Shown here one piece after another: positions 9,001 through 33,994 of a stretch of DNA of 43,665 nt; the first letter of the stretch is position 1, and the number at the start of each line of letters is the position of its first letter. The stretch is from Chloroflexota bacterium (lineage in GTDB: Bacteria > Chloroflexota > Anaerolineae > UBA4142 > SHND01), in the NCBI GenBank assembly GCA_029778615.1, contig JAKOPZ010000046.1:1-43665 (forward strand). Direction: 5' to 3'. Under the pieces are notes generated by a model, which saw only the letters and a list, made by a program, of their open reading frames with translations, was not told the DNA's origin and ran no database searches. A program made the position numbers and the translations under genes.

Positions 9001-11360
9001 GCAGGGTCTTCGTACACAATCGCGAAATCGGTGCCGCGATTTTCCCGCACGCTCAAACTCGCGATGGAAAAATTGTCATAGTACGTTTGAACGATTTGTG
9101 TTTGATTATGATAGTCCACGCCGTCCTTGACGTACGATTTGCACACGCCGCCTTCGGACTCTTGACATTCGTCCACCAACATTTGAATCGCCCACACCAA
9201 ACGCATCTTGTGCGCGCTGCCCCAACTCGACGCGGTGGGCTTGTACAACATTTTTGCGCTGAATGCGACGCGGTCTTGCGTGCGTGGGTCAGTGACAATT
9301 TGCAATGGCGCATACACAAACGTTGTGTTCGACGCGCCTTGCTTTTTGATAATGCCGTACGCGTCGAGGTCCGTTTGCGCGGGCAAATGCGCGCCGTTGG
9401 GAATTTCAATTTCCAACATCGGCAGCAATTTAATGTCGCCGTTGTCGTCGGGGCTCATTTTGCACGGACTGACGCTCGGCGGATTTTGATGGCGGCACAC
9501 ATCGTAAAAAGTTTTATCGCCGCTCCAATCATCGCGTTGAATCTGTCCCTCTTTGTCGCCCGAGGGCCAATCCAATACATTGAACGCGTACCACAAATGT
9601 TTCGGGTCAGTGGGACGAATCAACAAATCGGCGTACACATATTTGTCTTGCTGCGCGCTGTTGATGATGAGTTGAAACGGATTGTCGCCGCTAAACCCGT
9701 CCGCTTTTTTGAACGGCGATTCGTCTTGCGCGTTCGGCACACCGTCGCCGTCCATATCGCGGTCAAACAAATCGGGCGTACCGTCACCATCCGTATCCAC
9801 CGCGCAATTCGAGCCGTTGCATTTTTTTCCGTCCAAGATATTGTCTTGCATCGTGCTTGGTTCTTGCGGATTGGAATACCACTGCTTGCCGCCGAAACCA
9901 AAACCATTGATTTCGACGTTGTCGTTGACGCCATCTTCATCCGTATCGCGCGCGACAGAATTCGTCCCCAACGCATCTTCTTCGCAATCCCACAACCCAT
10001 CGCCATCGCTGTCCAACGGATTTGTGCACGTCGCTGCTGCGTTTGCGCTCGCGGCGGATGCAGGAAGATTGGAGACTGGAGACTGGAGACTGTTGACTCT
10101 TGACTCTCGACTCTCGACTCCCGACTCTCGACTCTCGACCAACGCGCGCGGGTCACTCTGCGGCTTCCACTCGTTGTACGCTTGAAATTTTTCATACAAC
10201 TCGCGTTCCGCTTTTTGCACGTCCGTTTTCTCTTGCTGCTGTTCCGCTTTCGCGCGCTGTGTGTTCACGAACGTTGACGCCTGCGCGGTCTGCATCAACG
10301 GATTCGCCTCCATTGCAAAAATTACAAATAGCGCGAGCGCGGCGTACACGCGGCGGTCACGATAATGTTTTGCAAAAAACAAAATCAACAATCCAAACAC
10401 CGCAATCGCGAAAAAATACACCGCGCCCTTGCTTGTCATTGCGACGAGCGCGTTTGTCATTGCGAGGAGCGTACTGTGCAACGAAGCAATCTCCCCCGCG
10501 CGAGGTGACACAGATGTCGCGTTGTGCGTACTCGCCGCGCTGGAGATTGCTTCGTCCCTCGCAATGACAAGCGCGTAATCGAAAAAATCAACCGTAAATT
10601 CATAATCCGTGCGCGAATCATCTTTAGCGGACGCGGGCGGAAAATGTGCGACGATTTTTTGGCGCAGTGGCAATCCGTTGTCACGTACCCACAATTCGCC
10701 ATTGCCCGTCATGTGTTCGTACTGCGCGGGCATATCGAGATTCATCGCGTACGGCAGTTCACCTTTTTCGCGCATCCGCGCTTGCAATTGGTCGCGCACA
10801 AACATTGCAAAACCGGGTCCGTCAATGTCGAACGTGTAACGCGTGAACGAAATTCCATCGCGCGTTTCGCTTCCTTCATTCACGATATTTTTCGCGCCCG
10901 CGAGAAATGCCATGAAATCGCCGTCGGGTGCGAACCCGCTCGAAATGTCGTCAATCTGTTCCCAATCCGTATCGCCGCGCCGCGCCATCGCTTTGCCGTT
11001 CGTCATTTGAAACTGCGCGGCAGTTTTCGGGTCAAGCACCGCGCCGCCATTGTCCCAAAACGCCATTTCAAATTTGCGCGTGGAAATATCGGGCGCGTTC
11101 AATCCGCTCGTCGCGCCTTCGAGGTGATAGTTATATTCTTTGCTGGTGCGTCCGACGTTGGAGGTTTGGGCGAGAGGAATCGCGCGTTCGATAATGTCCG
11201 CGCGAAAGGAATAGCCGCCCGTATTGCGCGCGGACTGCCACGCGTTTTTGATTTCACCGCGCGCGTCAAAAAAATTTCCGCCGCGTGCGGCTGCCAACAA
11301 AAGGAAAAGCGCGCTTGCACTCATCACAAGCGCGAGAAGGATGAAAAGGCGTTTCGCCAT
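1..11360 (-). CDS. Giant mosaic surface/secreted protein, C-terminus beyond the window
   Basis: I read one open frame of 3786 codons from ATG at 11360 to the left edge, with no stop. GAGG lies about 7 bases before the ATG. Residues 1-25 form a hydrophobic export segment. Residues 30-260 resemble an LppX/LolA-type lipoprotein domain. There are membrane segments near 312-355 and a cluster near 1128-1290. Asp-rich DxDGDG calcium repeats (thrombospondin type 3-like) lie at about 443-555 and 1517-1600. DUF11-like and Ig-like modules follow, then a LamG/concanavalin-like domain (2057-2257), a YWTD-type beta-propeller (2416-2691), another DUF11 module, and two Cys modules ending GGDPxPGxxKxCDYH. A second propeller (3144-3401) is followed by a right-handed beta-helix from about 3453. 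Thr-Pro linkers separate the last modules. Probable role: surface adhesion or carbohydrate contact (inference). Two DNA repeats are translated within it. The frame is clear; the function is not. Confidence 0.88.
10071..10140. repeat. Heptamer tandem array inside the giant gene
   Basis: Ten consecutive 7-base units, nearly all ending GACT (GGAGACT three times, then GTTGACT, CTTGACT, CTCGACT and variants). The array is translated on the minus strand as a Ser/Glu/Arg/Val-rich linker (about residues 407-430), between a membrane segment and the first calcium-binding repeats. The frame stays open through it. Confidence 0.85.
10433..10572. repeat. Palindromic repeat element inside the giant gene
   Basis: A unit beginning TTGTCATTGCGAGG and ending GAAGCAATCTCC occurs at 10455-10494 and inverted at 10542-10570, with a third partial copy at 10433-10452. 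The left copy carries about 11 extra bases. The element is read through in frame (about residues 263-310), between the LppX-like domain and the first membrane segment. It resembles the dispersed CATTGCGAG/GAAGCAATCTC palindromes I recall from other bacterial genomes. Confidence 0.85.
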
Positions 11361-19780: not shown

Positions 19781-22760
19781 ATGGCGAACGAATATCGCTT
19801 GTATCTGCTCGGCGGGTTTCGGCTCGAACGTGACGGGGCGCGCATTCCACTCTATTCGCGCAAAGTGGAATCGTTGTTGGCGTACCTCGCGCTCTTTCCG
19901 CAAGAACACGCGCGCGAAAAACTTGCCGCGCTGTTGTGGGGTGATTCGACGGATGAACAAGCGCGCGTCGCTCCGCCGCGCGCTCAACAATCTCCGCCAA
20001 CAACTGGGTACGGACGCTTTGCTGGCAGACCGCGACACGGTGCAGTTGAATCCCGATTTTCCGCTGTGGGTGGACACGCGCGAATTCCAGCCGATTGCCG
20101 ATAGCCGATTGCCGATAGCCGAGCGCGAATTTGCCATTAGCCATCTGCCATCCGCCCTAAGCGATTATGCGGAACTCCTTCCCGCTTTCTATGACGAATG
20201 GATTTTCCCGGTGCGCGAGGAATATCGCGCGCAGTATCTTGACGCGCTCGTCCGTTCTATCGAAAACGCGCGGGCGGCGAGCGAGTACACACAAGCGATT
20301 GCGTTGGGGCAAAAAATTTTGGCGATTGACCGCGCGCACGAAGAGGCGCATCAACATTTGATGTTTTGTTATGCCGCGTTGGGCAATCGCAGCGCGGCAT
20401 TGGCGCAGTACGACGCTTGTGCAAGCGCTCTGCGCGACGAGTTGGGGGTGGAACCCTCAACGGAAACGCGCGCGTTGTATGCGAGCATTCAGAAACAAGA
20501 AGAAACGGGTTCGCGTGCGGCGCGACTCACCAATTTGCCGAAACCGTTGACGAGTTTCGTCGGACGCGAACGCGAGTTAAATGAGATACGCGCGTTGTTA
20601 GGTAGGGGCGAAGCATCGCGTTCGGTGTCCGTTGCCGAACGCACAATGCATTCGCCCCTACGCCTAATCACTCTTGTCGGCGCGGGCGGCAGCGGCAAGA
20701 CACGCCTCGCGCTCGAAATCGGACGCGCGCTCGTGGAAGAATTTGAACAGGGTGTTTGGTTTGTGGACTTGGCGCCATTGTCTGATGCCGCGCTCGTGCC
20801 GCAGCAAATCGCCAAAGCGTTGGGCGTGCAGGAACAGCCAAATGTGCCGCTTACGGAAACACTCGTCGAATTTTTGCGCGAACGCGAATTGTTGTTGATT
20901 CTCGACAATTGCGAACACCTCCTTGACGCGTGCGCGCGCATTGCCCAGTCTCTAATCTCCAGTTCTCCAGTCTCTATCTTGGCGACAAGCCGCGAAGGAT
21001 TGAACATCGCGGGAGAACAGGTCTATCCCGTTGCGCCGTTGGCGGTGCCGCGCGTGGAAAAATTTTCGCTCGCGCACTTGGCGCAAGAATTTTCTGCAGT
21101 GCGTTTGTTTGTGGAACGCGCGCGTTTGGCGCAGCCGCAATTTATTTTGGACGACGTAAACGCGGCATTTGTGATTCAGATTTGTACACGGCTCGATGGG
21201 ATTCCGCTCGCGATTGAACTTGCTGCCGCACGCGTAAAACAGATGCAGGTGCGCGAGATTGCCGCACGGCTCGACCAACGTTTCGATTTGCTCGTCGGCG
21301 CGCGGACTGCGTTACCGCGTCAACAAACACTGCGCGCGTTGATGGATTGGTCACATGATTTGTTGAATGATGCGGAAAAAATTTTATTCCGCCGCGTGAG
21401 TGCGTTTGCAGGCGGTTGGACAATTGAGCGCGCGGAAGAGATTTGCGCGGATGATTCATTGCCGCGCGCGAAAATTTTGGACACGCTGCTGCGGCTTGTT
21501 GACAAGTCGCTGGTCATTCTGACGGACGGCGACGAAACGCGCTACACAATGCTTGAAACGATTCGCGAATATGCGCGCGAAAATTTACGCATGGCGAACG
21601 AGCTCGAGCCATTGCGCGCGAAACACTATCGGTCTTGCACCGCGTTTGCCGAACGCGCCGATGCCGCACTGTGGAATGACGACGAAAAAAAATGGATGCA
21701 AGTTTTTGAAGTGGAACACAACAATTTGCGCGCCGCGCTCGAATGGAGCATCGAACGCGCGACGCCCGAAACGAAACTTGGCGCGACGATGCGGCTCGCG
21801 GGGGCATTGGCGCATTTTTGGAATTCGGGCGGTTACATTGTGGAAGGGGAACAATGGCTCCACCGCGCGTTGAACCTGGATGAGCGCGCGCGAAATTCGG
21901 CGCATTGTGCGCGCGCGTTGACCGGCGCGGGTTCGATGGCATGGCGGCGCGGTGACTTTGAAGGCGCGATTGGATTTCATTCACGCGCGCTAGAGTTGTA
22001 CCGCGCGAACGCGGATTGGTGGGGCATGGCGTTGGCATTGAACAATTTGGGCGTTCAAAGCGACCAAGCGGGCGATTCCCCGCGCGCCATCGAACTCTAT
22101 CAGGAAGGATTGACCATCGCGCGTGAAAAAAGTTTGGACCGCATCGCGTCGTGGCTGTTGAATAATTTGGGCACGCTGTATATGGACGCGAAAAATCTAG
22201 CGCAAGCGAAACAGTGTTTTGAAGAATGTTTGGTGCTTGCCGAAAAAACGCGTTCACAAAGCACGGCAGCGTTTGTGTTGCACAATTTGGGTGATGTCGC
22301 GTTGTATGGGAAAGATTTTGCAAGCGCGTTGAATTTTTACGACACGAGTCTGCGCGCGGGACAAGCGTTGGGTTCCGCCGACCTCATCGCAGCAAATCAG
22401 TTGTTTCGCGGTTGGACCAAATATGCGATGAATTTGTCGGCGGACGCGTTGACCGACGCGCGTGCCGCGCTGCGACTCCTCTACGAACTGGGCGAAAGAC
22501 CGCAAATTGCTACGGCACTCGACGTAATGGCGGTGCTGCTGGCAGAGCAAAATCATCAAGCCGCCGCGCGCTTGTTTGGCGCGGCGGAAAAACTACACGC
22601 CGAGCTGCATTATCCGTTGGAGCAAGTCTTTCAAGCAGGGTACGAAAGCGCGCGCGCAGCTTTGAGCAAGAACATGGGTGCGGAAGCGTTTGAACACTCG
22701 CGGAAGCAAGGACAAAGCATGTCACTGGAGAAAGCGGTCAACCTCGCGTTCATGGAATAG
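19781..22760 (+). CDS. BTAD/NB-ARC-type ATPase/TPR regulator, frameshifted near its N-terminus
   Basis: About 993 residues if repaired. The N-terminus reads MANEYRLYLLGGFRLERDG, then SRKVESLLAYL and LAALLWGDSTDEQA from 19781. At 19961-19967 (GCGCGCG) the frame shifts: the downstream protein (ASLRRALNNLRQQLG and onward) continues in another frame, as if two bases of a GC run were lost. The rest is intact: BTAD, P-loop GAGGSGKTR near 300, Walker B LLLILDNCEHLL near 370, ATSRE, and TPR repeats to the end (DNLGVQ-type NNLG motifs). Either this is a disrupted gene, an assembly error, or a slippage switch. Three DNA repeats are translated within it (20090-20156, 20602-20661, 20945-20979). It has the same architecture as the gene at 11790. 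Confidence 0.8.
20090..20156. repeat. Heptamer array inside the second BTAD gene
   Basis: Units GCCGATT and GCCGATA alternate four times. After a short gap come GCCATTA, GCCATCT and GCCATCC. It is translated as a linker within the BTAD domain. The same GCCATCT and GCCATTA units recur at 34386-34399. Confidence 0.8.
20602..20661. repeat. GTAGGGGCGAAGCAT-type palindrome inside the second BTAD gene
   Basis: GTAGGGGCGAAGCAT (20602-20616) is matched by an inverted copy ending CGCCCCTAC (20646-20661). The inner stem is GCGTTCGG / CCGAACGC. It is read in frame between the LTSFVGRE motif and the first ATPase strand, where related proteins have a short loop. The same element occurs between genes at 23426-23497. 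Confidence 0.82.
20945..20979. repeat. Short CAGTCTC-type array inside the second BTAD gene
   Basis: Units of 7-8 bases (CAGTCTC, TAATCTC, CAGTTCTC, CAGTCTC) are translated just before the ATSRE motif of the ATPase. The protein length there stays close to that of the first BTAD protein, so the array seems to replace rather than add residues. Confidence 0.6.
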
Positions 22761-22905
22761 TTTGCAAATTCTGCGGTCAAACCTTTGGTGTAGCTCTTTT
22801 GTAGCTTTCGGTTGCTACAATGGCATCAAGAGTTCGGAAATACGGACGAACCAAAAAATCCAAGATTCATGGCATCACAATCCGATGCCGCAGGAGGCAA
22901 TCGAA

Positions 22906-23322
22906 ATGAAGACCCAAATCACAATCACCGAAGGATTACAACCGAATCACAATCTCGGCGGTTTGAAAATCAAACCGCAAATCGTCAACGCCTTGTCACA
23001 GAATCACAATCAAGGCGGCTTGAAAGTGAAACCGCAACTCGTCAACGCCTTGTCGCAGAACCACAATCTCGGCACGTTGCGCGTCAAACCGCAACTCGTC
23101 AACGCCTTGTCGCAGAATCACAATCAGGTTGGGCTGAAAGTCAAAGTGCAACTCGTCAGTGCCTTGTCACAGAATCACAATCTCGGCCCGCTCCAAATCA
23201 AACCACAAATCGTCAACGCGTTGTCCCAAAATCACAATCAAGGGGGCTTGAAAATCCAAGTACAAGGGATGCGCGGCATTCATCTCAATCACAACCTCGG
23301 CGGCTTGAAAGTGAATCGCTAA
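22906..23322 (+). CDS. 138-residue protein of seven 19-residue NHN repeats
   Basis: The start is the ATG at 22906, 8 bases after a perfect AGGAGG; a longer open frame from 22678 overlaps the BTAD gene and is rejected. After a 13-residue head (MKTQITITEGLQP), six 19-residue units and an 11-residue seventh follow. The consensus is NHN-(L/Q)-GGLK-(V/I)-KPQ-(I/L)-VNALSQ. The fourth position alternates strictly L, Q, L, Q, L, Q, L, giving a 38-residue higher-order unit. Repeats differ at many synonymous sites, which argues for selection on protein. There is no signal peptide, membrane segment, Cys or known catalytic motif. Alternating hydrophobic residues with Asn/Gln ladders suggest stacked beta-strands (solenoid or amyloid-like); this is inference. 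A terminator follows at 23376. I do not recognise the family. Confidence 0.85.
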   Translation: MKTQITITEGLQPNHNLGGLKIKPQIVNALSQNHNQGGLKVKPQLVNALSQNHNLGTLRVKPQLVNALSQNHNQVGLKVKVQLVSALSQNHNLGPLQIKPQIVNALSQNHNQGGLKIQVQGMRGIHLNHNLGGLKVNR

Positions 23323-23375: not shown

Positions 23376-23402
23376 GGACGTTGCTCGCCAACGTCTTTTT
23401 TG
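23376..23402 (+). terminator. Intrinsic terminator after the NHN-repeat gene
   Basis: The stem GACGTT / AACGTC has a 7-base loop, is preceded by A-rich sequence and is followed by a T run. It lies about 55 bases after the stop codon. Confidence 0.88.
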
Positions 23403-23509: not shown

Positions 23510-24598
23510 ATGTCCGACCCCGCCGACCTCGCCGTTGAACTCTTTAATCAAGCATTGGAATCCCGCGCACAGGGCGATTTGGAACGCGCGCAAGAATTGT
23601 GCGTGCAAGCGATTGTGTTTATTCAAAATGCCGACGGCGAAAATTCTCCCGATGCCGCGAATTTGTTGAATGTTCTCGCGTCCATACGCGACGAACGCGG
23701 GGACTATGAAGGCGCGATAGAGGCAGCACAACGCGCAGTGAAAATTGTTGACGCGCTCGGCGACGATTTTTCGGGAGACGATGCCGCGCATGTTCGGATT
23801 GAAGCGTGGAGCCGCCTCGGCAATTTGCAACGTCACCTTGCGCGCTATCCCGAAGCCGAAATCATTTTGAAACGCGCACTCGCGTTGGCAATCGCTGAAT
23901 TTGGCGAAGCGAGCGATAAAGCATCCAACGCGCGCAACAATCTCGGTATTCTTTACAAATACACGGGTAAATTCGACGACGCGAAAATTTTGTACGAAAC
24001 CGCGTTAGAAAATATCGAACGCGAATACAGACGCGAACACATTTCCACCGCGTCGCTGTATCACAATCTCGGCGGACTCGAACATGCGCGCGGAAATTTT
24101 GCCGAAGGCGAAAAACCCGCGCGCAAAGCGTGGGAAATTCGAGCGAACGCTTTAGGTTCGCAACATCCCAACGCGCTCGCCGATGCGGTCGCGTATGCGG
24201 GCGTACTCGACGGACTCGAACGCTACGACGAATCGGAAACAATTTATCGCGATGTTCTGGTAGAGTACGAAAAATTGTATCGCGCCGAACATTACGAAAT
24301 CGCCGCTGTGCTGCACAATCTCGGCAATGTGCGTTTTGCGCGCGGCGATTATGCCGAAGCGGAAACGTTGATGCGGCGCACACTCGCCATCAAACAAAAA
24401 TTGTTCGGCGACGAACATCCCGACACCGCGCTCTCGATGAACAATCTCGGCGTTCTCTTGCAAGCACAAGGCAAGATTGACGACGCCCGCGAAATGTTTC
24501 AACGCGCGTTGGAAATTTTTCAAGCGACGCTCGGCGATCAACATCCGCAGACGCAGATGGCGCGGGAGAATTGGGGAGAGGTAGCAGGTAGTAGGTAG
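23510..24598 (+). CDS. Kinesin-light-chain-like TPR protein
   Basis: 363 residues from the ATG at 23510; the open frame upstream is only the palindromic repeat. At least seven TPR units of about 42 residues are visible, with phrases such as NNLGILYKYTGKFDDA, HNLGGLEHARGNFAEGE, HNLGNVRFARGDYAEAE and NNLGVLLQAQGKIDDA. GxxHPxTA linkers between them are typical of the TPR_12/kinesin light chain class. There is no signal peptide and no second domain. Its role is presumably protein-protein contact in the cytoplasm. The last residues (EVAGSR) and the stop codon are written by the start of a heptamer array, so the original C-terminus may have been overwritten. Neighbours are the NHN-repeat gene upstream and an MFS gene downstream. 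Confidence 0.85.
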   Translation: MSDPADLAVELFNQALESRAQGDLERAQELCVQAIVFIQNADGENSPDAANLLNVLASIRDERGDYEGAIEAAQRAVKIVDALGDDFSGDDAAHVRIEAWSRLGNLQRHLARYPEAEIILKRALALAIAEFGEASDKASNARNNLGILYKYTGKFDDAKILYETALENIEREYRREHISTASLYHNLGGLEHARGNFAEGEKPARKAWEIRANALGSQHPNALADAVAYAGVLDGLERYDESETIYRDVLVEYEKLYRAEHYEIAAVLHNLGNVRFARGDYAEAETLMRRTLAIKQKLFGDEHPDTALSMNNLGVLLQAQGKIDDAREMFQRALEIFQATLGDQHPQTQMARENWGEVAGSR

Positions 24599-24641: not shown

Positions 24642-25853
24642 GTGTCTTTATTCCGTTCCCTCCGCCATCGCTCTTTTCTCCTCCTCTGGCTCGGACAAAC
24701 CATTTCGCGCGTGGGCGATTTCATGTACGAAATTGCGCTCGCGTGGTGGGTGCTAGAAAAAACCGGCGACGCGACGTTGATGGGCGGCGTCCTCGTTGCG
24801 GCGATTACCCCATCTGTTATTTTCTATCTCATCGGTGGCGTTGCGGTGGACAGATTCTCGCGCGTCGGTTTGATGCTCGCGTCGGATGTGGCGCGCGGCG
24901 CGGTGGTGCTGCTCGTCAGTTTTCTCGCCTTTACAGACCAACTGGAGATTTGGGAAATTGTCGCGGCGAGTTTATTTTTTGGAGTTGTAGACGCGTTCTT
25001 TCAACCGGCGTTCAGCGCGCTCGTCCCTCAAATTGTGCCGCCAGAAGATTTGCCGAGCGCGAATTCGCTTTCGAGCATGAGCGTAAATTTGGGACGTGTG
25101 GCAGGTCCGGCGCTGGGTGCGGGTGTCGTCGCGTTGATTGGTTCACCGCTCGCATTTTTAATTAACGGGATTTCGTTTTTCGCGTCCGCGTTGTTTTTGC
25201 TGCCTCTGCTGCACCTCAACATTCCGCGCGCGGTTGCGGAAAAAGGCGCATCCGTTTTGCGCGAGCTGCGCGAAGGATTCGACACCGTACTGCAATCGCA
25301 ATGGCTGTGGATTAGTATTCTCGTGTTTGCCTTGACCAACATCACGCTCGCGGGACCGTATAGCGTCGCGATGCCATTTCTTGTCAACGACAATTTGCAC
25401 GCGAGCGTCGAAATGTTAGGTCTGTTGTATGCGATGTTTTCGCTCGGTTACGTGCTGGGTGGAATTTTTCTGGGGCGTTATGCGCGGATTCGCAAACGCG
25501 GTTGGTTGATGTATGGTGCGGGTACGATTGCGGCATTGCTGCTCGGACTGTTTGGCTTGCTGCCGCCCTTATGGGTTTTGATTGCTGCCGCGCTGTGCAA
25601 CGGCGCGCTTTTGGAAATGGGGCATTTGACGTGGGTCAACACGCTGCAAGAAATGGTGCCGAATGAAAAGTTGGGGCGCGTGGTGAGCATTGACAACATG
25701 GGTTCGTTCGCGTTACTGCCAATCGGTTTCTTGCTTGCGGGGTGGGCGACGGAACAATTTGGCGCGCCGATGGTTTTTATCAGCGGCGGGCTGTTCACCG
25801 CAATCGTTTCGGCGGCAGGATTGTTGGTACCGGCGATTCGCAATTTGGACTGA
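24642..25853 (+). CDS. MFS transporter (MFS_3/EntS-like exporter)
   Basis: 403 residues starting at GTG 24642. It has about 12 membrane segments. The N-terminal pattern SLRHRSFLLLWLGQTISRVGDFMYEIAL matches the MFS_3 drug or siderophore exporter class. VDRFSRVGLMLASDVARG carries the loop between segments 2 and 3, and FFQPAFSALVPQIV, LPSANSL and GPALGAGVVALIG fall in segments 4-5. The substrate cannot be inferred. It starts just after an inverted heptamer array, 43 bases past the TPR gene, and could be co-transcribed with it. It converges on the BrnA gene. Confidence 0.88.
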   Translation: MSLFRSLRHRSFLLLWLGQTISRVGDFMYEIALAWWVLEKTGDATLMGGVLVAAITPSVIFYLIGGVAVDRFSRVGLMLASDVARGAVVLLVSFLAFTDQLEIWEIVAASLFFGVVDAFFQPAFSALVPQIVPPEDLPSANSLSSMSVNLGRVAGPALGAGVVALIGSPLAFLINGISFFASALFLLPLLHLNIPRAVAEKGASVLRELREGFDTVLQSQWLWISILVFALTNITLAGPYSVAMPFLVNDNLHASVEMLGLLYAMFSLGYVLGGIFLGRYARIRKRGWLMYGAGTIAALLLGLFGLLPPLWVLIAAALCNGALLEMGHLTWVNTLQEMVPNEKLGRVVSIDNMGSFALLPIGFLLAGWATEQFGAPMVFISGGLFTAIVSAAGLLVPAIRNLD

Positions 25854-32956: not shown

Positions 32957-33994
32957 CTACTCCACACCATCCATCACCCTTAACAAATTCTCCGTGAACG
33001 GCGGATACACGATGCCGCGTTCCGTCACAATCGCCGTGAGATATTTGTTCGGTGTCACATCAAACGCGGGATTCCCGACTTGAACGCCAACCGGCGCAAT
33101 TCGCACGCCGTCAATCGTCGTCACTTCTTCTGCGCCGCGTTCCTCAATCGGAATTTCGCGTCCACTTGCCAGCGACATGTCAATCGTCGAAGTGGGCATC
33201 ACCGCATACACAGGCACATTGTTTTCGCGCGCGACGACGGCGAGTTTGTACGAACCGATTTTATTTGCCACATCGCCGTTCGCCGCCACGCGGTCCGCGC
33301 CATAGAAAACTTTGGTCGCAATCCCGCGATACAAATAATGTCCCGCCGCGTTATCCGCAATCAACGTCATCGGCACACCGTACTGCATCAATTCCCACGC
33401 GGTCAAACGCGCGCCTTGCAAGCGCGGACGCGTTTCGTCAACGAGAACGTGAATCTTTTTTCCCTGCCGATGCGCCTCGATGATGCAGCCCAATGCCGTG
33501 CCAACATCCACCGTCGCGAGCGGACCCGTGTTGCAGTGATGCAAAATCGTGTCGCCGTCGTTGATGAGCGACGCGCCAAATCCCGCCATGCGTTGATTGA
33601 GCGCGACATCTTCTTCCGCAATCGCTTGCGCTTCGGCAACCACCAGCGCACGCGAATCATTCACAGACAAATTTGCCGCGCGAAGCTTTTTCAAAATGCG
33701 TTGAATTGCCCAACCGAGATTCACCGCCGTCGGGCGGGTGGCATTCAATTCGCGCCCTACGCGTTCCAATTCTTGAATAAAATCCTCGCGCGTCGTCGCG
33801 TCCGATTGCATTGCCGCGAGCGCCATGCCGAACGCTGCCGCCGCGCCAATCGCGGGCGCGCCGCGCACCCACATTTCCGAAATCGAGCGCGCAATCGTCG
33901 GATAATCGCGAATCTCGACGTATACGAGTTCGGCGGGTAACTTGCGTTGGTCAATCATGCGCACGACACCGTCGCGCAGTTCAAGAGTCCGCAT
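32957..33994 (-). CDS. mtnA: Methylthioribose-1-phosphate isomerase
   Basis: 345 residues from the ATG at 33994 (MRTLELRDG); the frame upstream is riboswitch sequence. It isomerises 5-methylthioribose-1-phosphate to 5-methylthioribulose-1-phosphate in methionine salvage. Seen: RGAPAIGAAAAFGMALA, HHCNTGPLATVDVGTALG with the catalytic Cys, ETRPRLQGARLTAWEL, and GADRVAANGDVANKIGSYKL with the catalytic Asp. Length is normal. Expression is controlled by the SAM-I riboswitch upstream. The U tract of the terminator ends only about 5 bases before the ATG, so the GGGAG that could act as ribosome site lies in the terminator stem. MNT, HEPN remnant and DinB follow on the same strand. Confidence 0.95.
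   Translation of the reverse strand: MRTLELRDGVVRMIDQRKLPAELVYVEIRDYPTIARSISEMWVRGAPAIGAAAAFGMALAAMQSDATTREDFIQELERVGRELNATRPTAVNLGWAIQRILKKLRAANLSVNDSRALVVAEAQAIAEEDVALNQRMAGFGASLINDGDTILHHCNTGPLATVDVGTALGCIIEAHRQGKKIHVLVDETRPRLQGARLTAWELMQYGVPMTLIADNAAGHYLYRGIATKVFYGADRVAANGDVANKIGSYKLAVVARENNVPVYAVMPTSTIDMSLASGREIPIEERGAEEVTTIDGVRIAPVGVQVGNPAFDVTPNKYLTAIVTERGIVYPPFTENLLRVMDGVE

Follow-up and report, generated by a model that had tools for sequence, protein, structure and literature searches.

This work concerns a 43,665-nucleotide stretch of a Chloroflexota contig, here called the window. It holds a small gene whose product consists almost entirely of short repeats, each opening with the residues NHN. 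Does such a protein stand alone in a single genome, or is it one member of something larger, and what could it be doing among its neighbors? A sequence-only reading of the window had proposed that the protein is under selection, that it evolves as 38-residue pairs, and that it represents an undescribed family. We examined the array, its relatives, and the genes that accompany it, and we consider each of these proposals below.

A constrained array of 19-residue repeats

The features of the locus are listed in Table 1. The reading frame stays open in the 5' direction as far as 22678, and we chose the listed start because of the ribosome-binding site found there and the MKTQ start of a relative described below. 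The protein opens with MKTQITITEGLQPNHNLGGLKIKPQIVNALSQNHNQGGLKVK... and carries seven NHN motifs at a spacing of exactly 19 residues, the first of them at residue 14. It comprises six full units, NHN[L/Q]GGLKVKPQLVNALSQ, and a terminal half unit; the sixth unit, which begins at 23230, is divergent, and the C-terminus reads LKVNR. Tandem Repeats Finder reported the array at 22944-23265 with periods of 57 (score 352) and 114 (score 425). The protein is strongly basic (pI 11.8), and no cysteine, hydrophobic segment, or signal segment was found in its 138 residues. The sequence-only reading was accurate on the seven NHN units, on the missing signal and cysteine, and on the gene having its own ribosome site and terminator, both of which can be read directly; we call the latter terminator-like, and a scan of the region around the gene gave no excess of such sites.

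Table 1. Features of the NHN repeat locus in the window
Feature	Position	Strand	Remarks
BTAD-STAND(NB-ARC)-TPR regulator	19781..22760	+	syntenic regulator in G003
Ribosome-binding site AGGAGG	22892..22897	+	read directly; 9-14 nt 5' of ATG
NHN repeat protein gene	22906..23322	+	ATG 22906, TAA 23320-23322, 138 aa
Terminator-like hairpin GACGTTG-CTCGC-CAACGTC, then T6	23377..23401	+	read directly
TPR protein, 361 aa from MSDPAD	23513..24598	+	NHN-gene neighbor conserved in Chloroflexota and Acidobacteriota
MFS exporter (PF07690/PF05977)	24642..25853	+	syntenic in G003, 81% identity

The proposal that the protein is selected was upheld by a dN/dS-type check among the repeats. The pN/pS ratio among the window units was 0.50 in the coding frame, whereas the two alternative frames gave 1.13 and 1.06, and codon-level constraint on the repeat frame is real. 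The strict alternation of L and Q at position 4 was likewise visible in the codons of all seven units (L,Q,L,Q,L,Q,L, encoded by CTC/CAA/CTC/CAG/CTC/CAA/CTC); by chance alone, one in 35 orderings of four L and three Q would alternate. The 38-residue pair that had been proposed as the evolving unit was not supported, since DNA identity was about equal between units of the same parity (0.806) and of different parity (0.796), five of ten label permutations grouped the units equally well, and position 4 of the relative in the same genus reads Q,L,L. The closest pair was the adjacent units 1 and 2 (0.91). The data favor a repeat unit of 19 residues over one of 38, and the earlier observation as a whole is confirmed in part, the pair being the part left unconfirmed.

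An apparently shrunken relative in the same genus

By profile A1, which was built from Acidobacterial and Chloroflexota units, the NHN gene of the window is the sole copy in its own genome. Across 20 genomes of the order, the gene was present in two, the window genome and that of another species of the same genus (G003). The G003 gene is syntenic and encodes 62 residues with three units, NHN[Q/L]GGLKVKPQLTEML. On its 3' side are counterparts of the window TPR protein (82% identity) and of the MFS protein of Table 1; on its 5' side comes a BTAD-STAND-TPR regulator, separated from it by an inserted methyltransferase gene and an inserted gene for a small protein. Frame, ribosome site, and neighbors are all kept between the two species, as is a near-identical terminator-like hairpin 3' of the gene. 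The G003 array seems once to have been longer and to have since shrunk, because a decayed unit, NLGGLQARAPLTE, can still be read past the stop of the gene (L050 10366-10622, minus strand). Four other species of the genus had no convincing NHN gene and no such TPR protein; within the genus, the two genes are either both present (two species) or both absent (four).

Two other sequences from the order resemble single units. Elsewhere in G003, a lone NHNLGGLKVK unit, NHNLGGLKVKARL (L173 2100-2187, G003:C33), closes a 79-residue ORF, one of a series of small genes that follow the TPR end of an apparent second large regulator. In another genome, a small protein with GIAVQTGVKAGGMKDGHW (L166 1345-1590, G010:C99) looks like one unit without NHN and is possibly a wider relative of the family. 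Searching 400 Chloroflexota genomes by protein and by pattern turned up nothing outside the window that rose above chance or above the control pattern.

A repeat family that reaches into Acidobacteriota

A degenerate DNA pattern (NHN ... LKVK ... NHN) was run over 84,980 genomes, guided by hypothetical proteins that we presumed to read like KVKTNVKAGG...NHNQT and used as a lead only. The scan yielded one real group, that of the Acidobacteriia MAG G481, one of whose proteins reads MNIKTNVKAGGLRANHNQIGLKAKSAVKAGGVNFNHNQGGLKVK... This genome has about twenty NHN genes of one to about fourteen units each. Profile A1 detected the family in 19 of the 257 genomes searched from a single Acidobacteriota order, a few of these matches being weak. 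The family consensus is GLxVK[S/T]xVKAGx2-6NHN[Q/E]. Over 159 Acidobacterial units it reads [V/I/M]K[S/T]xVKAGx2-6NHN[Q/E], with S or T at VK[S/T] in 157 units and the G of KAG in 155. Units are mostly 19-23 residues long and have the core GLxVKxxx...NHN, with a spacing of 19-26 in G481 and other lengths elsewhere, and members with only one or two units exist.

The window protein shares with this family the tandem NHN motifs at a regular spacing of about 20 residues and the GLxVK that follows NHN[Q/E] (NHNQGGLKVK in the window). NHNQGGLxVK is common to both phyla over ten columns, and the proteins of both groups start inside the unit (MKTQITITEGLQPNHN vs MNIKTNVKAGGLRANHN). Against an HMM of Acidobacterial units only, the window protein scored 34.8 bits, and the best of 2000 column-permuted versions of its own repeat scored 23.1. 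The VK[S/T]xVKAG core is missing, the corresponding residues being KPQLVNAL in the window and KPQLTEML in G003, and the S/T position of the Acidobacterial units is P, V, or A in Chloroflexota. We therefore file the window protein as a distant branch rather than a typical member. This branch may have diverged in function, because the near-invariant S/T and KAG are missing there.

Homology across the two phyla consists of short motifs, and the first Acidobacterial matches were drawn by a pattern into which NHN and LKVK had been built. Independent support for kinship must therefore come from other features: the Q at position 4, the GG that precedes LKVK, the length of the repeat, a protein start inside the unit, and, above all, the shared TPR neighbor. 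We consider the family relation of the window protein and its TPR partner well supported. The protein is not an orphan of one genome and belongs to a larger NHN family, of which it appears, by sequence comparison, to be a distant Chloroflexota branch. The claim that this family is undescribed stood as well: no family in Pfam, NCBIfam, PHROG, or PDB fits the window protein above its own cut-off, and the NHN motif went unmentioned in the literature searched, which consisted mostly of papers outside subscription. Sub-threshold profile matches to Pop8 and DUF4021 were taken as composition artefacts.

Searches of genome contigs with the window protein alone gave no match, tblastn against plasmids gave only a weak Mycolicibacterium match on the opposite strand of an annotated gene, and profile A1 matched nothing in 244 Cyanobacteria, a search run without a positive control. 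A locus of the control set, L185, looks family-like by regular expression, yet is not a member. At L158 8055-8978, two consecutive genes beside a sigma factor and a kinase have NHNQ replaced by NHVE (KTSLKAGG...NHVETGLKSKK).

The TPR protein and other genes of the window locus

The window locus shares with the Acidobacterial loci a neighboring TPR ortholog of about 362 residues. The window TPR protein is 46% identical to those beside the NHN genes in L233 and L228, over 360-362 positions and almost without gaps. It is 34-42% identical to five further Acidobacterial TPR proteins adjacent to NHN genes, with the YHNLGGLEHARG region in common. Ten of the Acidobacterial NHN loci, not all, have a window-like TPR protein above 80 bits, the best control gene reaching 28.8 bits; the enrichment beside NHN genes (Fisher p 0.006) was computed with a small control set, and TPR proteins are common. 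The stretch YHNLGGLEHARG in the window TPR protein resembles the NHNLGGLKVK of the repeat, a likeness that is probably coincidence because the NHN profile gives no significant match to that protein.

Near the NHN gene of the window lie a BTAD-STAND regulator and an MFS protein, where about half of the Acidobacterial NHN loci have C39 ABC/HlyD or ECF sigma/kinase genes. There is no C39 transporter in the window, and no kinase adjoins the NHN genes of the two Chloroflexota species. The MFS protein, two genes downstream of the NHN gene, resembles drug and siderophore exporters and is a possible exporter or immunity protein. The N-terminal part of the regulator (19781 to about 19985) lies in a different frame from the rest. 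In tblastn, the match to the G003 regulator runs in one frame for the first ~62 residues and in another for the remainder, so the window gene is frameshifted or misassembled.

Farther away in the window, a SAM riboswitch (RF00162; 34047-34259, minus strand) lies upstream of a minus-strand gene at 32957-33994, which we take by eye for a methionine-salvage isomerase. Degenerate 12-base repeats of the GTTGGCGTGAAC type occur at 1011-2810 within a very long ORF on the minus strand, which begins at 11360 and extends beyond the left edge.

Regulators and exporters beside Acidobacterial NHN genes

In G481, the 162 genes near NHN genes included 12 kinase and 11 sigma genes, versus none among 236 control genes (p 4e-10). 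Pfam assigned these regulators to PF07638 (ECF sigma) and PF00069 (kinase). Seventeen of the 21 NHN-neighboring sigma factors carry the QxTA motif of ECF43, the site of the phosphorylated threonine in members of that group (PMC13147305; PMC8999054). The association is strong but not universal, since a sigma factor or kinase lies no more than two genes away from 26 of the 52 NHN genes counted over all loci. These proteins are membrane Ser/Thr kinases, in which a kinase domain on the cytoplasmic side is followed by a K/R-rich flank, a main membrane segment, and then a TPR region; given the positively charged flank and the single main membrane segment ahead of it, we predict that this TPR tail is extracytoplasmic.

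At L238, the genes follow one another on one strand in the order NHN-TPR-sigma-kinase-globin-HlyD-C39 peptidase-ABC, overlapping or closely spaced, and L226 mirrors this order. HlyD and C39 genes also occur in L227, L232, and L233, and a C39 gene in L252; most NHN genes have no C39 gene nearby. The sequence-only reading had seen nothing nearby that would suit a peptide natural product. This holds at the window locus, though an MFS exporter lies two genes 3', and fails for the wider family, where C39/HlyD genes are found at several loci.

Globin-like genes lie in or beside NHN operons at L226 2525-2965 (PF00042), L238 13035-13475, and L156 3400-3819, the latter two recognized by eye. At L228 8179-9048, a protein with TPR and SET (lysine methyltransferase) regions lies between two lysine-rich NHN genes and is a possible modifying enzyme.

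A possible exported product under regulatory control

The NHN gene is the small first gene of its loci or an isolated one. Because these loci hold a regulator, a TPR protein, and sometimes an exporter, and no consistent enzyme, we read the repeat protein as what they make, and we infer, still with reserve, that it is their exported product. Our tentative overall account is that the repeat polypeptide is exported, that its production is regulated, and that TPR domains handle or sense it. The regulator (sigma factor and kinase in Acidobacteriota; the BTAD-STAND-TPR activator in the window) would turn on the NHN gene. The TPR protein would bind the repeated, extended, basic segments as a chaperone or adaptor, and the transporter (C39 ABC/HlyD; in the window perhaps the MFS protein) would carry the product out. 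Outside the cell, it could act as a multivalent peptide that competes, coats, or signals. Repetition would multiply the binding unit, one or two units being enough in the shortest relatives.

Export at the window locus is a weaker inference than in Acidobacteriota, because the only nearby transporter is the MFS protein. No canonical double-glycine leader was found in the NHN proteins, and Chloroflexota have VNAL in place of the KAGG stretch. KAGG is not kept in many units, and hence we do not claim it as a C39 cleavage site. One can also imagine a full circuit, in which C39/HlyD-exported NHN proteins are sensed outside by the kinase TPR tail, ECF43 is phosphorylated, and the operon is induced again, Chloroflexota having rewired the repeat and TPR proteins to a cytoplasmic STAND-TPR activator; we offer this as speculation with a small chance of being right.

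The main rival to export keeps the NHN protein in the cytoplasm, as a scaffold that binds TPR domains multivalently and tunes the adjacent regulator and that, in Acidobacteriota, is phosphorylated at VK[S/T] by the neighboring kinase. It would account for the near-invariant S/T beside adjacent kinases, for the loss of that residue exactly in the Chloroflexota branch that has no kinase neighbor, and for a strongly basic protein without a signal peptide. We nevertheless judge it unlikely, although with a real share of the probability, because C39/HlyD exporters share NHN operons, S/T is retained even at loci without an adjacent kinase, and the TPR tail of the kinase is predicted to face outward. 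The near-identical tandem units and the C39 peptidase transporters would also suit a multi-core RiPP-like precursor cut into peptides of ~20 residues, for example by C39 at KAGG, as would the SET-domain/TPR protein at L228 and the methyltransferase beside the G003 gene. These two enzymes were each seen at that one place only, however, and no RiPP modifying enzyme was found among the five window genes scanned. With no consistent modifying enzyme, with non-canonical leader positions, and with a GG that many units replace with GR, GK, GA, or others and that the window protein lacks, such a precursor is quite improbable. Least probable of all is a decaying or non-functional ORF, a selfish tandem repeat. 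The presence of the gene in just two of 20 genomes of the order, the decayed and lone units in G003, and the frameshifted window regulator point that way, but they are set against a pN/pS of 0.50 in the coding frame only, the features retained in G003, and the recurrence of both the family and its TPR association in another phylum.

The protein might also be structural, a self-assembling beta-solenoid or amyloid-like assembly with one coil per unit and stacked Asn/His ladders. The AlphaFold model of the window protein was not usable (pLDDT 38). For a six-unit Acidobacterial relative (pLDDT 70, pTM 0.62), AlphaFold modeled two strands per unit of ~20 residues, INQNH and LKVKSAVKA. VIA-align matched this model to assorted beta-helices with Z up to 9.9, though values near 8-10 may reflect a common arrangement only and are close to those of repeats without kinship; Foldseek returned no match at E <= 0.001. 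On these models, no fold rises clearly above background in either search, and a beta-solenoid is possible for NHN proteins and only modestly favored for the Acidobacterial relative. The existence of single-unit relatives argues that a solenoid is not required in the family, and members with one or two units are too short to form one alone. A solenoid is moreover a fold, compatible with the other readings, and as an explanation of the locus we consider it improbable.

The exported product thus stays our provisional choice, and the earlier interpretation as a whole is supported in part. A family with some twenty copies in one Acidobacterial genome has been passed over by annotation pipelines because it has no Pfam or NCBIfam model. 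It is often found alongside TPR proteins, kinase-linked sigma factors, and peptide exporters, which offers a hypothesis for the targets of many ECF43/kinase pairs of soil bacteria, and a window protein that had seemed an orphan now has testable partners, one TPR protein and one transporter.

Comparison with known systems

Several known systems resemble parts of these loci. BASS, the amyloid signaling linked to NLR/STAND proteins, also has a short repeat-like sequence adjoining a STAND protein; in the window, however, the motif is missing from the STAND regulator (profile A1 matches the NHN gene only), and no effector domain is attached. The FxSxx-COOH systems similarly pair a small peptide gene with a TPR protein, and NF040586 is the best NCBIfam match of the window TPR protein, at 152.6 bits, below the cut-off of 300. 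They differ in that the window protein ends in LKVNR rather than FxSxx, and a radical SAM partner was not seen.

NHLP/NHLM bacteriocin export (TIGR03796, TIGR03797, TIGR03794) and other C39-ABC systems are like the Acidobacterial NHN loci in that small ribosomal products have a C39-ABC transporter and an HlyD-type adaptor next to them. In NCBIfam, the C39 transporter at an NHN locus matches TIGR03796 and TIGR03797 best, the Acidobacterial L227 transporter reaching 164.9 bits against a cut-off of 853.3. The NHN substrate is instead a tandem repeat without an evident double-glycine leader and has TPR, sigma, and kinase partners, and the window locus has an MFS protein in place of the C39 transporter. 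Finally, the ECF43 sigma/Ser-Thr kinase modules (EcfP-PknT, EcfK-PknS) share with many NHN loci a PF07638 sigma factor with QxTA beside a membrane kinase. The NHN loci add to this a repeat protein, a TPR protein, and an exporter, and in the window a BTAD-STAND regulator takes the place of the module.
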